The notes beneath the pieces were generated by a model. It ran no database searches and was not told the DNA's origin. It worked only from the letters and a program-made list of their open reading frames with translations. Positions 1,112 through 5,630 of a stretch of 36,565 nt of DNA are shown piece after piece. Every line of letters starts with the position of its first letter. The first letter of the stretch is position 1. This stretch comes from an uncultured Prochlorococcus sp. (GTDB taxonomy: Bacteria > Cyanobacteriota > Cyanobacteriia > PCC-6307 > Cyanobiaceae), in contig CACPLK010000007.1 in assembly GCA_902634795.1 (NCBI GenBank), positions 1-36,565 on the forward strand, written 5' to 3'. Position numbers and translations under genes: made by a program.

Positions 1112-1654
1112 TTATGGATTTATACGTTCCATAATCCATTCATTTTTAAGTATCCATCGTTTTCTTAGATGAATAGGTTTATGAAGGAGTAAATGATCAA
1201 CTTGAGTAATTTCAATCTTAATTAATGAAAAATTACTTGGAATTTCTTTGTTTTTTGTAAACTTTAGATCTTTTGTTGTTTTAACGGAATAATTTTCACC
1301 TGGACTTGGCCAACTCCACATAGCTTTATTTTCTTCACTTAATTGCTCCCAATGGCGTTGAATTTCCTTATTCATTTCTATATTTGCATTTCCTCGAAAC
1401 CTAAATTGGCATCTCGATCTTGCAAAAAGCCAACATATCTCAACATTATTATTTAAATATAATTCATGAGATTTTTGACTTCTGTTATCCGTATATATTT
1501 CCATTTCAAAGTTTTCAGTCCATCCTCTAAAAACTACTGTTCTTACTCTTGGACTTTTATCAAGTCCAATTGTTGCAAGTTGCATCCATCTAGAAGAATA
1601 AAATTTAGATTCTTTTCTCTGTAGAGAGCTAACATCAGTAAACCATGGAGGCAT
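1112..1654 (-). CDS. FMN-binding pyridoxamine-phosphate-oxidase-like protein (alr4036 type)
   Basis: This 180-aa protein has the split-barrel flavoprotein fold signature. The N-terminal stretch SSRWMQLATIGLDKSPRVRTVVFRGW (about residues 20-45) matches the first strands of the family. EIYTDNRSQKSHEL (53-66) carries the FMN-phosphate-binding Arg/Lys seen in PNPOx proteins. CRFRFRG-like strands follow at about 80-90, then the W-x-x-L-S motif region. Length matches the cyanobacterial alr4036-type group. The substrate of this group is not settled: true PdxH is longer and ends in a conserved R-L-x-P segment that I do not see, so I do not call it pdxH. The gene stands alone on the minus strand. Family assignment is confident; function is not. 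Confidence 0.8.
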   Translation of the reverse strand: MPPWFTDVSSLQRKESKFYSSRWMQLATIGLDKSPRVRTVVFRGWTENFEMEIYTDNRSQKSHELYLNNNVEICWLFARSRCQFRFRGNANIEMNKEIQRHWEQLSEENKAMWSWPSPGENYSVKTTKDLKFTKNKEIPSNFSLIKIEITQVDHLLLHKPIHLRKRWILKNEWIMERINP

Positions 1655-1784
1655 AACAATATTTATTTAATTTAAAAAAAGCATGCCAATACTAAAATAT
1701 ATTTGGGTATTTATAGAGTTAAAAGATAAATTAAAATATAGAATTAGAATAATACTTTTATATTTTTATTATAATTTAATATCT

Positions 1785-1925
1785 CTATGGCTCTTCATCT
1801 TCATTATTAACCCTAATTTCCACACCAACAAAAGTTGCAAATAAAACTATGAATAAGCCAAATATTGATTTCCATAATGAAATTTGAGTTGCTGGTTCAG
1901 GTGATTGAAACAAATCTAGAGTCAT
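1785..1925 (-). CDS. Small single-span membrane protein, 46 aa
   Basis: An ATG at 1925-1923 opens a 46-codon frame ending in TAG at 1787-1785. The peptide has a polar N-terminus (MTLDLFQSPEPATQ), one hydrophobic helix at about residues 17-35 (WKSIFGLFIVLFATFVGVEI) and an acidic tail ending NNEDEEP. This resembles the low-molecular-weight subunits of photosynthetic or NDH-1 complexes, but I cannot match it to a named one. It starts 14 bases after the stop of the 68-aa gene on the same strand, so the two are probably co-transcribed. The helix and charged tail argue for a real gene. Confidence 0.6.
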   Translation of the reverse strand: MTLDLFQSPEPATQISLWKSIFGLFIVLFATFVGVEIRVNNEDEEP

Positions 1926-1939
1926 AATTTTTTAAAAGT

Positions 1940-2146
1940 CTATTTATTCTCTTCCCAGTCTTCTTCTGCCTTATCAAGCATATCTTCAACGGTATTGTCA
2001 AAAGTCTCTGCTACAGACCTCAGCATTTTGGAAATAGTCTCATCTGGGCAAGCAAGATCTTTTTGTATACCTTCAGCGCAGTCCTTGATTTCTTCCCATG
2101 CATCTACCAGTACTTGCGAGTCTACTGGTTTCCATTCTTCTGTCAT
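1940..2146 (-). CDS. Small acidic hypothetical protein, 68 aa
   Basis: Unrecognised. A strongly acidic helical protein containing WEEIKDCAEGIQKDLACPDE (about 17-36) and ending DMLDKAEEDWEENK. It has two Cys about 10 residues apart and no membrane segment. A GGGGAA stretch about 8-13 bases upstream of the ATG may act as ribosome-binding site. Three Trp and steady amphipathic spacing support a real protein. It probably forms a two-gene unit with the membrane peptide downstream, and is divergent from the 61-aa gene at 2282. Confidence 0.65.
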   Translation of the reverse strand: MTEEWKPVDSQVLVDAWEEIKDCAEGIQKDLACPDETISKMLRSVAETFDNTVEDMLDKAEEDWEENK

Positions 2147-2198
2147 AGATAAATTCCCCGTTTAGAGTAGAAAATGGATTTTTCATGAACCATCAAAT

Positions 2199-2248
2199 TT
2201 TAGCTTTTACTTAGCTAAAGACTGTCTTGATTTCTTCATTTAAATGAA
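2199..2248. promoter_or_regulatory. Two palindromes in a divergent promoter region
   Basis: The 135-base gap between the divergent 68-aa (minus) and 61-aa (plus) genes holds TTTAGCT (2199-2205)/AGCTAAA (2213-2219), a 7-bp inverted repeat with a 7-nt gap. It also holds the perfectly self-complementary 14-mer TTCATTTAAATGAA (2235-2248). Position and symmetry suit a dimeric repressor site or overlapping promoters. This is inferred from symmetry only, and AT-rich DNA produces such palindromes by chance. Confidence 0.3.
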
Positions 2249-2281
2249 AGGTGTTAGCCCAACTGATAATTTCATACACAT

Positions 2282-2467
2282 ATGAATAATTCAATAGAAG
2301 AGATTCAGAAACTACGCGCAAAGACTGAGGCATCAAATAATTTGACTGCACAGTTTGAACAAGCTTCTGCACGACTAGAGGCAACACTCACAAGAAAAGA
2401 AATACAAAAGGTTAATGAGAAGTCGAAAAACCGTAATTTCATGTGTCAAGAAGTTTCAAACTTTTAA
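2282..2467 (+). CDS. Small coiled-coil protein, 61 aa (module copy 1)
   Basis: A helical, charged peptide. Residues 4-48 (IEEIQKLRAKTEAS onward) align without gaps to the 51-aa protein at 2929-3084, with 19 of 45 identical positions counted by eye. Shared positions include QKLR, the E/S/N/T spacing, LEA-L and the QKV-EK end. Spacing of Leu, Phe and Ala suggests a short coiled coil. The last 13 residues (NRNFMCQEVSNF) are absent from the other copy. It is followed after 59 bases by a 22-aa peptide gene and then a strong terminator, so the pair is probably one transcript. Conservation between the copies is good evidence that it is translated. Function unknown. Confidence 0.75.
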   Translation: MNNSIEEIQKLRAKTEASNNLTAQFEQASARLEATLTRKEIQKVNEKSKNRNFMCQEVSNF

Positions 2468-2526
2468 TTCTTATTTACGTATTTATAAACAGACCTATAA
2501 ATAAAGATAGAGACTAGATTTTTATC

Positions 2527-2595
2527 ATGCTTTTGCCTAAGCCAGTTAGACCTGTTGATTCTGAAAAGAAAGGAAAAGACCACATTAGTCATTAA
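2527..2595 (+). CDS. Micropeptide MLLPKPV type, 22 aa (module copy 1)
   Basis: ATG at 2527 to TAA at 2593-2595. The N-terminus MLLPKPVRPVDSEKK matches that of the 24-aa peptide at 3160 (MLLPKPVLPINNKDK): the first seven residues are identical, the Pro at position 9 is shared, and a Lys-rich tail follows. Codons differ between copies at several positions (TTG/TTA, AAG/AAA, CCA/CCT), which suggests selection on the peptide rather than recent DNA duplication. No clear Shine-Dalgarno. It is followed by the terminator at 2649. Function unknown. Confidence 0.6.
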   Translation: MLLPKPVRPVDSEKKGKDHISH

Positions 2596-2928
2596 ATTAA
2601 TCCAATTACTGATTTTCAAGTTATAGAATCATTGATTAGTAATTATTTAAGAACATAGATATATATTTATATCTATGTTCTTTTTTTATTTTTAATTTAT
2701 TCCATAAAATATTTCTCAGTTGCTATCTAACAAAATATAAAAAGGGTATTTCTTATATTATATTAAACAATTATCAATAGTATTTCCAGATTTATCAGCA
2801 GATTACGTTTTAAACTATTGACATCTAGAAAATCTTTGGCAAATTAGTGCTTGTGTTCTTCCGTCAATTTTTTACGTTAATTTTCTTTTGTTTGTTTAAG
2901 AAAAAAAATCAATCTTTTCATTTTCCCT
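2596..2928. other. 333-base gap between module copies
   Basis: This gap holds the strong terminator at 2649-2682. Further right, a consensus -35 hexamer TTGACA (2818-2823) lies about 105 bases before the second copy; the best -10 partner at 17-base spacing (AAATTA) is poor. No ORF was accepted here. Confidence 0.4.
2649..2690 (+). terminator. Rho-independent terminator of module copy 1
   Basis: Bases 2649-2663 and 2668-2682 form a perfect 15-bp stem (core GAACATAGAT) with a 4-nt loop. It runs directly into a T-run (2681-2687) and further T-rich sequence to 2693. It starts 53 bases after the stop of the 22-aa peptide. This is the clearest intrinsic terminator in the window, and it implies that the second module has its own promoter. 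Confidence 0.85.
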
Positions 2929-3084
2929 ATGAAAACTGCATATAAAGAACTTCAAAAGCTTAGATCAATGGCTGAGACCTCTTTGAATAAGACCGATGAG
3001 CTGCAGCAAGTTTTGGCTCATATAGAGGCCAGTCTTTCAAGTGCTCAATCACAAAAAGTATTAGAAAAGACTAACAAAAAATAA
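2929..3084 (+). CDS. Small coiled-coil protein, 51 aa (module copy 2)
   Basis: ATG at 2929 to TAA at 3082-3084. It is the paralogue of the 61-aa protein at 2282. It starts MKTAYKELQKLRSMAETS and ends QKVLEKTNKK, with the same heptad-like spacing (L-Q-K-L, E-L-Q-Q-V-L, I-E-A-S-L). It is helical, has no Cys and no membrane segment. A 75-base spacer separates it from the second MLLPKPV peptide, so order and strand match copy 1. No convincing Shine-Dalgarno sequence is present. Function unknown; the duplication is the main reason to accept the gene. Confidence 0.75.
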   Translation: MKTAYKELQKLRSMAETSLNKTDELQQVLAHIEASLSSAQSQKVLEKTNKK

Positions 3085-3159
3085 ATATCATTAAATCGTA
3101 TCAATAGCTGCAGATTTCAGGATAGAAACATATTAAAAAACTATAGTTATTTTTTTTAA

Positions 3160-3234
3160 ATGCTTTTACCTAAACCTGTTCTTCCAATAAATAATAAAGA
3201 TAAAAATAAAAAGTTTAAATTATTTAATACATAA
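3160..3234 (+). CDS. Micropeptide MLLPKPV type, 24 aa (module copy 2)
   Basis: ATG at 3160 to TAA at 3232-3234. It starts MLLPKPVLPINN and continues with a Lys/Asn-rich basic tail ending FKLFNT. The first seven residues are those of the peptide at 2527, and it occupies the same position after a coiled-coil protein gene. The ATG follows a run of eight T and AA, with no Shine-Dalgarno sequence. Unlike copy 1, no strong terminator follows. Confidence 0.6.
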   Translation: MLLPKPVLPINNKDKNKKFKLFNT

Positions 3235-3421
3235 TAGTATACATTCATAAAAATATGTTATTAACAAATTATTTATTAAGAAGTGTGGATATAATTCATA
3301 TTCTTTAAATACCTTATTATTTACGATTTATTTATTAACTATTAGTGCTGATATGAATTTGTATATTTATTTATTACCTAATTAATAGCAATCATAAAGA
3401 TAATAATAATTTATATTATTA

Positions 3422-3610
3422 TTAATGAATTATAAAATAATGTAGAACAAGAGAAAGCAAAATTCCTGTCCAGAGTCCCTTTAACCAACTTAAAACCAGC
3501 ATTTGATAATTACTTAAGCGAAAGTGATTTTGAATAGCAAGTGCGGCTCGTTTATCAAAACCTAGTAATGAATAGGTCTTTCCTTCTGAATTAAACAATT
3601 TTCTATTCAT
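3422..3610 (-). CDS. Small membrane protein, 62 aa
   Basis: Unrecognised. A polar N-terminal half (MNRKLFNSEGKTYSLLGFDKRAA, residues 1-23) with several basic residues is followed by an amphipathic stretch. One hydrophobic helix lies near the C-terminus (about 42-60, LKGLWTGILLSLVLHYFI). ATG at 3610 is the only good start. Residue make-up (two Trp, Gly-rich turns, positive-inside pattern) is typical of a real small cyanobacterial membrane protein. It stands alone on the minus strand. Confidence 0.6.
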   Translation of the reverse strand: MNRKLFNSEGKTYSLLGFDKRAALAIQNHFRLSNYQMLVLSWLKGLWTGILLSLVLHYFIIH

Positions 3611-3841
3611 TAATCTTTTATGTCTAAAATTATATTAGATCGTTACTTTCTATTGTTAATTTTATTTAATGAAAAAGTAACCATTTATTAATTCGACAGA
3701 GATATTTTCCCAATATCCAAGAAAGAAGGTTAACCGATCAAATTTAGAACACGCTTTAATGGATTATCACCAATAATAAGTTCATCATAAATTTTCTAAA
3801 AAAATACACTTGCATTCTGCTTGAATACATTAATCAAAAAA

Positions 3842-3982
3842 ATGAAACCCATTAATCAAGACAAGAAAAACAAGCAAAAGGAAAGAATATTATGTTTACT
3901 AGCAGAATTAAACTCCACACTTGACCTTTACTACGAGAACGCTATTAAAAGCGATGTTGCATCATTGAAAAATAAAATTTGA
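3842..3982 (+). CDS. Small helical hypothetical protein, 46 aa
   Basis: ATG at 3842 to TGA at 3980-3982. The basic head MKPINQDKKNKQKER precedes an amphipathic helix (ILCLLAELNSTLDLYYENAI, about 16-35) and a short tail. In size and layout it resembles the coiled-coil peptides at 2282 and 2929, but I cannot align it convincingly to them. No Shine-Dalgarno sequence. Residue composition is better than random AT-rich translation. Function unknown. Confidence 0.45.
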   Translation: MKPINQDKKNKQKERILCLLAELNSTLDLYYENAIKSDVASLKNKI

Positions 3983-4186
3983 TTCAAAATTATTTGAAAT
4001 AATTATTCCGATACACATATTTTTTTCTCTAGATTATTCTTACTTCTAATAAGTACTTGATATTTTGAATTTTGTTGTTATGTTCTTAGTATAGTTATTA
4101 TAATTCTAAATCAATCAAGTCAACTAGAGAACAAAAAACTTTTTCTCACAATTAAAAAAAGTATTTTTTTTACATTCCTTTCTATA

Positions 4187-4297
4187 ATGACCTGTAACTG
4201 TCAGCACTGCATTGAAATAAAGAAACAGATTGATAGAGCTGAACAAAGACAGGCATTCTTATTTAAAGCTAGGAGTTCTAAAGTCATTATTAAGTGA
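4187..4297 (+). CDS. Cys-rich micropeptide, 36 aa
   Basis: ATG at 4187 to TGA at 4295-4297. The N-terminus MTCNCQHCIEIKKQ has three Cys and a His in C-x-C-x-H-C spacing, followed by a basic helix (about 12-30) ending KVIIK. The cluster could bind a metal or form a disulphide, but three Cys plus His in six residues is not a named zinc motif. It ends 3 bases before the convergent 71-aa ORF. Its Cys density is unusual for an AT-rich chance frame. Confidence 0.45.
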   Translation: MTCNCQHCIEIKKQIDRAEQRQAFLFKARSSKVIIK

Positions 4298-4300
4298 AAA

Positions 4301-4516
4301 TTATTTATCATATGGGATAACAGGTATTTCTATTCTCATTGTCTTATTAGTAATTTTAGATTTATGATCATCTAGTGCATTTTCCCTCTCTGAGTTTCGA
4401 ACTCTGTGTTTGTCATTTCTTGCTTCAAGATTAACAAAAAAGAAATAAATAAATATTAGTAGAAAATAAGGTATAAGATTTCTTATATTTTTTAATATCA
4501 TTGATATTGAGTTCAT
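4301..4516 (-). CDS. Small membrane-anchored hypothetical protein, 71 aa
   Basis: Unrecognised. One very hydrophobic helix (about residues 14-30, LIPYFLLIFIYFFFVNL) is preceded by Lys/Asn/Arg and followed by a strongly charged region (about 31-60) and the tail IEIPVIPYDK. The start could be ATG at 4516 or the Met at position 6. No Shine-Dalgarno sequence. A poly-Phe/Ile helix can arise by chance in AT-rich DNA; the charged, low-hydrophobicity second half supports coding. Convergent with the Cys-rich peptide. Confidence 0.4.
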   Translation of the reverse strand: MNSISMILKNIRNLIPYFLLIFIYFFFVNLEARNDKHRVRNSERENALDDHKSKITNKTMRIEIPVIPYDK

Positions 4517-5048: not shown

Positions 5049-5228
5049 TTAATTAATTTTATTTATATATAGTATCTCATAATTATTATTACTACTTTCA
5101 ATTGCATTAATCCATTCTCTAAATTCACTTTTAAGAGCCTCCTTATCCTGCCCTTCTAGTTTTGAAAGCCTCTTGAGCGCAGAGTCAATTGTCACCTCAC
5201 AGCTGCCAATTAAGCTTGTTTTGGACAT
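5049..5228 (-). CDS. Small hypothetical protein, 59 aa (divergent paralogue A)
   Basis: ATG at 5228-5226 to TAA at 5051-5049. The protein starts MSKTSLIGSCEVT and contains SALKRLSKLEGQDKEAL and SEFREWI. Over the 30 residues from EVT to EWI it matches the 61-aa protein encoded divergently at 5445 at 14 positions (EV, LKRL, L-G, EAL, E, EW), without gaps. That paralogy is the main evidence for translation. Likely an all-helical soluble protein. A 216-base promoter region separates the pair. Function unknown. Confidence 0.7.
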   Translation of the reverse strand: MSKTSLIGSCEVTIDSALKRLSKLEGQDKEALKSEFREWINAIESSNNNYEILYINKIN

Positions 5229-5444: not shown

Positions 5445-5630
5445 ATGTCTTCAAAGCAATCTGGAGCTTTACAGGCAGTCGAGGTAATGCTTAACGGATC
5501 TCTAAAACGTCTAAATAATTTGAAAGGAGATAACAGGGAGGCCCTTTATGATGAATATAAAGAATGGCTAGAGGTAGATGATAATAATGTAATTAATGAT
5601 GGAGTTTTATATTGTAACTATCTTGGATAA
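5445..5630 (+). CDS. Small hypothetical protein, 61 aa (divergent paralogue B)
   Basis: ATG at 5445, protein MSSKQSGALQAVEV..., with SLKRLNNLKGDNREAL, YKEWL and an acidic Asn-rich tail ending LYCNYLG. It is the paralogue of the 59-aa protein on the other strand (shared LKRL-x-x-L-x-G-x-x-x-EAL and EW). Both end near the motif LY. It ends 9 bases before the convergent trmL stop. Function unknown. Confidence 0.72.
   Translation: MSSKQSGALQAVEVMLNGSLKRLNNLKGDNREALYDEYKEWLEVDDNNVINDGVLYCNYLG

Follow-up and report, generated by a model that had tools for sequence, protein, structure and literature searches.

Two very small genes, one for a helical protein and one for a peptide, stand twice in a row in the window (the whole stretch of DNA analyzed here, 36,565 nucleotides), and the question raised by this locus is which of the four genes, or which pairing of them, has been kept. 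The window makes up contig C7 of a 1.11-Mb genome assembly, 61% complete, whose nearest named relatives are Prochlorococcus single-cell genomes, in a genus that has complete genomes of 1.8-2.0 Mb among its members. A preliminary description had read the locus as an old duplication of a two-gene module kept by selection, with each unit expressed separately. The four frames lie where that description placed them, in the same order and on the same strand in both units. For comparison we used the 30 of the 41 genomes in the genus that carry the exact peptide motif (motif-bearing genomes), and the parts of the locus are as follows.

2217-2245, no strand assigned: conserved CTGTCTTG block between A and a divergent 68-aa gene, present also in several genomes with a broken A
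2282-2467, + strand: A, upstream copy of the small helical-protein gene, coding for 61 aa in the window and for about 50-52 aa in those relatives whose frame is intact
2445-2526, + strand: conserved block 5' of pepA, read as a promoter region, with 81% mean pairwise identity in 30 genomes
2451-2461, 2474-2479 and 2496-2501, + strand: elements of that block, AAGTTTCAAAC, TTTACG and TATAAA respectively, with 16 nt between the last two
2527-2595, + strand: pepA, micropeptide gene, 22 aa in the window, intact in 30 of 30 motif-bearing genomes
2649-2690, + strand: intrinsic terminator 3' of pepA, a 15-pair stem with a T tail
2815-2850, + strand: conserved block 5' of B, with TTGACA at 2818-2823, read as a promoter region from an alignment of 20 loci
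2929-3084, + strand: B, downstream copy of the small helical-protein gene, coding for 51 aa and full length in 28 of 30 genomes
3160-3234, + strand: pepB, second copy of the peptide, 24 aa in the window, found in 8 of 28 genomes

The sizes first given for A and its peptide, 61 and 22 aa, are correct for the window and do not carry over to its relatives. Intact copies of A end at about 50-52 residues, while that of the window runs on into the block upstream of pepA, and pepA is 19 residues long in 27 of the 30 genomes; G004 and G031 have 17, and the window, with a small indel ahead of the stop, has 22. The common 19-residue product is MLLPKPVRPVDSEKKGKDx.

The duplication itself is real and old. 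BLASTP aligns A with B at 20 of 48 identical positions (E 2e-10), close to the 19 of 45 reported at first, and the alignment scores 95, while none of 2000 shuffles exceeds 55. MLLPKPV, common to both peptides, is the sole seven-residue start that occurs twice among the 247 ATG frames of 15-60 aa in the window. DNA identity is indeed low outside the coding parts, since similarity above that of shuffled sequence is confined to A/B (60%) and pepA/pepB (64%), and the upstream, middle and downstream pieces of the two units do not rise above the shuffled level. In the protein tree the 12 A proteins form a single branch across species (support 99/92), which places the duplication before the origin of the sampled species. 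The tree test does not reject a single B group, and placing the gene of other Prochlorococcus nearer A or nearer B gives AU p values of 0.10 to 0.51; the tree row HL_L107 is identical to a paralogue of G029 and is taken for G029's own contig. The model of B is one helix (residues 2-50, mean pLDDT 83, pTM 0.43), and from this we infer that A and B are probably coiled-coil oligomers. The A/B profile finds weak coiled-coil-like matches only in the PDB, the best at E 0.03. Neither A, B, pepA nor pepB has a Pfam or NCBIfam match above cut-off, the window's peptide is unmatched in the PDB at E up to 10, and Rfam returns nothing at a family's cut-off in 1500-4500.

The history of the four genes after the duplication is uneven. 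A is uninterrupted in 15 of the 30 motif-bearing genomes and carries lesions in the other 15, three of these calls being borderline (G201, whose only lesion is at codon 48, and G003 and G021, in which a later ATG could give a possible shorter protein). Each broken copy has its own set of lesions except for G007 and G019, which have the same one, and some single positions recur. In the 13 uninterrupted ungapped copies the dN/dS of A is 0.20, with 0.38 in the N-terminal half and 0.095 in the C-terminal half; the two halves give 0.50 and 0.37 in the 15 broken copies versus 0.36 and 0.09 in the 15 intact ones. On the best flank species tree, which is built from 720 nt, is mostly unresolved (3 of 25 branches starred) and leaves out G004 and G031 because their upstream regions are rearranged, the status of A changes 11 times, and none of the three clades with good support is uniform in this respect. 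A full-length B is present in 28 of the 30 genomes (dN/dS 0.09), and pepB is found in eight of these 28, where its scores of at least 76 compare with shuffle maxima of at most 32 and its dN/dS is 0.17. It was not found in the other 20, and the scores in G002 and G016 (18 and 20) are at chance level. It should be noted that all dN/dS values given here are pooled pairwise counts over related genomes, with all 30 motif-bearing genomes used, so their intervals are not independent tests.

Hence the pairs are not kept as pairs, since A and pepB decay while B and pepA survive, and the two-gene module is not retained as a unit. Decay is complementary, the protein being retained downstream as B and the peptide upstream as pepA. 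The preliminary description had named two findings that would count against it, namely no conserved pairing in relatives or a dN/dS near 1 in both peptides; pairing is not conserved, yet both peptides have a low dN/dS. What stands of it is the old tandem duplication, the conserved order and the selection on coding frames; the two-gene unit as the thing retained is not supported. That the protein and peptide form one working pair, a complex or a toxin-antitoxin-like system that was duplicated as such, is suggested by the common order and strand of both copies, with gaps of 59 nt (A to pepA) and 75 nt (B to pepB) between protein and peptide in the window, and by the coexistence of four uninterrupted genes in G000, G032, G034, G330 and G354. 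We nevertheless regard it as improbable, given that the losses are separate (A is broken in 15 of 30, no pepB was found in 20 of 28, G029 lacks B at the locus, and G004 has damage in both A and B) with pepA always intact. The genes of a toxin-antitoxin system would be expected to stay together and these do not, and the peptide is charged and not membrane-like. Because five genomes have all four frames, the complete set may yet be in service in certain lineages, and use of all four genes by these or others is likewise conceivable given the constraint on A and pepB where they are present (0.20 and 0.17). In 28 of the 30 genomes pepA could also be paired with B rather than with A.

The gene that is intact in every motif-bearing genome is pepA. 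Over codons 1-17 the 30 genomes have 29 different DNA sequences, and dN/dS is 0.020 for codons 2-17 (30 genomes), 0.022 for codons 8-17, analyzed separately because the search pattern fixed residues 1-7, and 0.041 once codon 18 is added (28 genomes). Within the frame pS is 0.52 and pN 0.017, so that third positions vary and residues do not; Arg 8, for example, is maintained through AGA and four CGN codons. The constraint on pepA is stronger than that on the adjacent 51-aa B (0.02 versus 0.09). A frame that is kept across species with synonymous changes dominant is what a conserved micropeptide gene would look like, and the tiny peptide appears functional because it hardly changes between species while parts of the duplicated neighborhood break down. 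Very probably the pepA frame is translated and under selection. One could suppose that selection acts on the DNA, as a promoter or binding site, that the frame is a by-product and that no peptide is made, and the upstream block is in fact conserved as much as many coding stretches. Free third positions with fixed residues speak against this, and we give it almost no credence.

We propose that pepA is transcribed from a promoter of its own. The 82 nt 5' of the gene have 81% mean pairwise identity with 39 near-invariant columns in the 30 genomes, while the 50 nt 3' of its stop fall to 47%, the same level as the spacer beyond the terminator. Ten genomes were searched for this upstream block; eight have one site each, and the two without it (G027 and G028) also are without the peptide motif. 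The block is compatible with a -35/-10 pair, TTTACG and TATAAA with 16 nt between them, preceded by AAGTTTCAAAC. Reading it as a promoter rests on conservation, since a generic promoter scan did not list the pair and the region shows no clear excess of promoter-like sites (22 versus 17.0 +/- 3.6 in shuffles). No good Shine-Dalgarno sequence is evident before pepA. The HLR1 direct repeat (RpaB control) is not above chance in the upstream block, where the best forward scores are 11-14 of 16 and mostly 12-13; of 73094 positions in the window alone, 283 score 12 and 27 score 13. The CTGTCTTG block is retained despite a broken A, for example in G007, G010, G012 and G019, and for this reason it probably serves the divergent 68-aa gene. 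That gene (1940-2146, - strand) is 94% identical in G033 and has no Pfam or NCBIfam match above cut-off.

A strong terminator does separate the two units, as first described. The scan of 1900-4500 gives one terminator-like site, 2649-2682 followed by a T tail, where 0.5 are expected; a script finds a terminator-like hairpin in 25 of the 30 pepA loci, a different hairpin in a few of them, and none in the other five. Across 28 genomes identity is 65% in the block 5' of B and 54% in the 65 nt ahead of the gene, and pepB, where present, is preceded by a different block (by eye). Separate expression of the units is a likely arrangement; they do not look like two operons, as a conserved block of its own precedes pepA and another precedes B. 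The position of a short proline-rich frame just ahead of a terminator, and of B in the same orientation about 240 nt beyond, would also suit a leader peptide on which the behavior of the ribosome sets terminator read-through and hence the expression of B. Against this, B has its own conserved TTGACA upstream block, there is no conserved structure beyond the terminator hairpin and no alternative fold was seen, and pepA persists in G029, where B is missing at the locus and a B-type paralogue lies on another contig, and in G004, where A is broken and B truncated. The intact pepA of these two genomes argues both against a tied pair and against a leader role, which we consider improbable.

A short stand-alone unit with its own terminator, predicted at about 180 nt, raises the further alternative that the transcript is a regulatory sRNA that also carries a peptide frame. 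There is precedent in Yfr6 and Yfr9 of MED4, reported as ncRNAs with potential peptide frames (PMC2518516), and three new sRNAs, Yfr106-108, were validated in NATL2A (PMC7368042). As the main text of the latter report gives no positions for them, one of these could be the pepA transcript. By their published description Yfr6 and Yfr9 resemble pepA in being short stand-alone transcripts (for pepA, predicted ones) that come from intergenic DNA of Prochlorococcus and carry a peptide frame, conserved or potential; the frames have 33 aa in Yfr6 and 44 aa in Yfr9 versus about 19 aa in pepA (PMC2518516). They are, however, described as overlapped by another ncRNA and as conserved over the whole RNA (PMC2518516), unlike pepA, in which conservation is found only in the frame, the upstream block and the terminator. 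Indeed, the transcribed part beyond the frame and terminator is not conserved (47% in the 50 nt after the stop), the terminator hairpin is the only consensus RNA fold of the locus alignment, and changes inside the frame are synonymous. A dual-function RNA is therefore unlikely. Conserved micropeptide genes are known as a kind, and in the open-access literature searched we found pepA itself described nowhere and no match to the exact string MLLPKPV.

The distribution of the peptide is narrow. Within the genus 30 of 41 genomes have its exact motif, versus one of the 359 other genomes of the family sample (G088), and the exact-pattern matches in G088 and G044 were rejected as lying in contexts unrelated to the locus. 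Outside the genus, matches with up to two mismatches are mostly GC-rich and of the same kind as those of a reversed-pattern control; one in G172, the only one of these inspected for frame and context, is inside a protease-like gene. The 11 genus genomes without the motif are 51-97% complete. In four of them the flanks were checked, and the neighbor trmL was not found in three and stands at a contig edge in one, so that assembly gaps may lie behind the absence in these four, if not demonstrably in all 11. A phage origin was also rejected, as the B-type query matches no phage record at E up to 1 and no confirmed relative occurs in viral contigs, in which the one exact match to the peptide pattern, MLLPKPVRPRSQ, lies at the end of an open frame and is judged to be chance.

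The helical proteins have a wider family. At E < 1e-10 the A and B profile finds relatives in 11 of 151 family genomes and 2 of 59 genera. A scan of named genomes gave 197 confirmed stretches, and among the best 80 of these, 19 are of the window's kind, all 19 with the peptide and with no pstB nearby. In the other 61 PstB is upstream in 59, ending 342-612 nt before a B-like gene (about 0.4 kb), and six-frame translation of each of the 61 gives no MLLPKP-type frame; PstB is missing from L140, whose contig begins near the gene, and from L107, the presumed G029 contig. This B-like protein of other Prochlorococcus (48-50 aa, 52-58% identical to the window's B) is homologous to B and A, is without such a peptide, and is single copy in five matched genomes of the second genus, in contrast to the A and B pair of the window's locus. 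In the window's genus pstB is elsewhere, with other neighbors (three loci inspected). A Pho-box or phosphate link for B, drawn from the pstB neighborhood of its relatives (PMC1906773), was set aside as positional only. Between pstB and the B-like gene of L103 there is a 29-aa hydrophobic frame (2760-2849, MKNFPFLPFLIFAGALITTATVGLPVFNS), and frames that resemble it by eye, with another start codon, are present in the second-genus loci L062-L066. Like G029, G022 has a B-type paralogue on another contig; these additional, diverged copies (L223 in G022, L225 in G029) are 49-51 aa long. L082 and L083 have 44-aa frames containing LQQVLAQI, which appear to be a still more remote B-type paralogue. The MNPxKQH family of picocyanobacteria is also short and helix-prone, with an LSRxEAQK stretch similar to A/B; it is present in 51 of 101 family genomes, including, at another place, that of the window (G000, C16, 17119-17241), with up to three copies in G025, and we treat it as a separate family.

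To the homology, frames, purifying selection, decay pattern and terminator, which are established by computation, we add a hypothetical scheme for the origin and action of pepA. The protein and the peptide were duplicated in tandem, presumably as one piece, before the sampled species split, and complementary decay would then have left the protein in copy 2 (B) and the peptide in copy 1 (pepA). A and B would be single-helix small proteins, probably oligomeric. Transcription of the pepA unit from the promoter in the conserved upstream block would give an RNA of about 180 nt, made up of a leader (roughly 20 nt), some 19 codons of frame and the intrinsic terminator. We favor, with moderate confidence, the reading of pepA as a free-standing micropeptide gene and not as half of a two-gene module. 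Its product is charged, proline-rich and not membrane-like, and is too short to fold alone. As a soluble peptide it may bind a partner protein through a near-invariant stretch, which runs from MLLPKPVRP over an acidic spot to KKGK. Its most likely action, proposed tentatively and at rather less than even confidence, is that of a short linear ligand for some conserved protein. To our knowledge pepA is shorter than the known examples of cyanobacterial small proteins.

Cyanobacterial small proteins are described as products of <80 residues, many of which are regulatory or subunits (PMC5126843, PMC7760959). With some reserve we suggest that pepA could represent a near-invariant soluble peptide of about 19 residues, with its own promoter throughout the genus, that regulates a core process or forms a subunit in it; the locus would then be the trace of a tandem duplication in which complementary decay spared the peptide of one copy and the protein of the other. 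Genes as short as pepA are routinely missed in annotation, and the host genus consists of phototrophs that are very abundant in the ocean and have streamlined genomes. Should the peptide be made, it would be a very small and testable regulator or subunit. In any case, a half-decayed duplicate followed over 30 genomes is a natural record of which parts of a locus are needed.

Other small genes lie nearby in the window. A 62-aa frame (3422-3610, - strand) is below the Pfam cut-off for DUF1294 and has a clear relative in G033. Further along, a 36-aa frame (4187-4297, + strand; MTCNCQHCIEIKKQIDRAEQRQ) has a Cys-rich start and could possibly be a conserved metal-binding microprotein; similar frames follow the locus in G029 and G012. 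About 2 kb downstream of the locus, two tiny paralogous proteins (5049-5228, - strand, and 5445-5630, + strand; 18 of 56 positions identical, E 5e-12) represent another small-gene duplication, this one on opposite strands.
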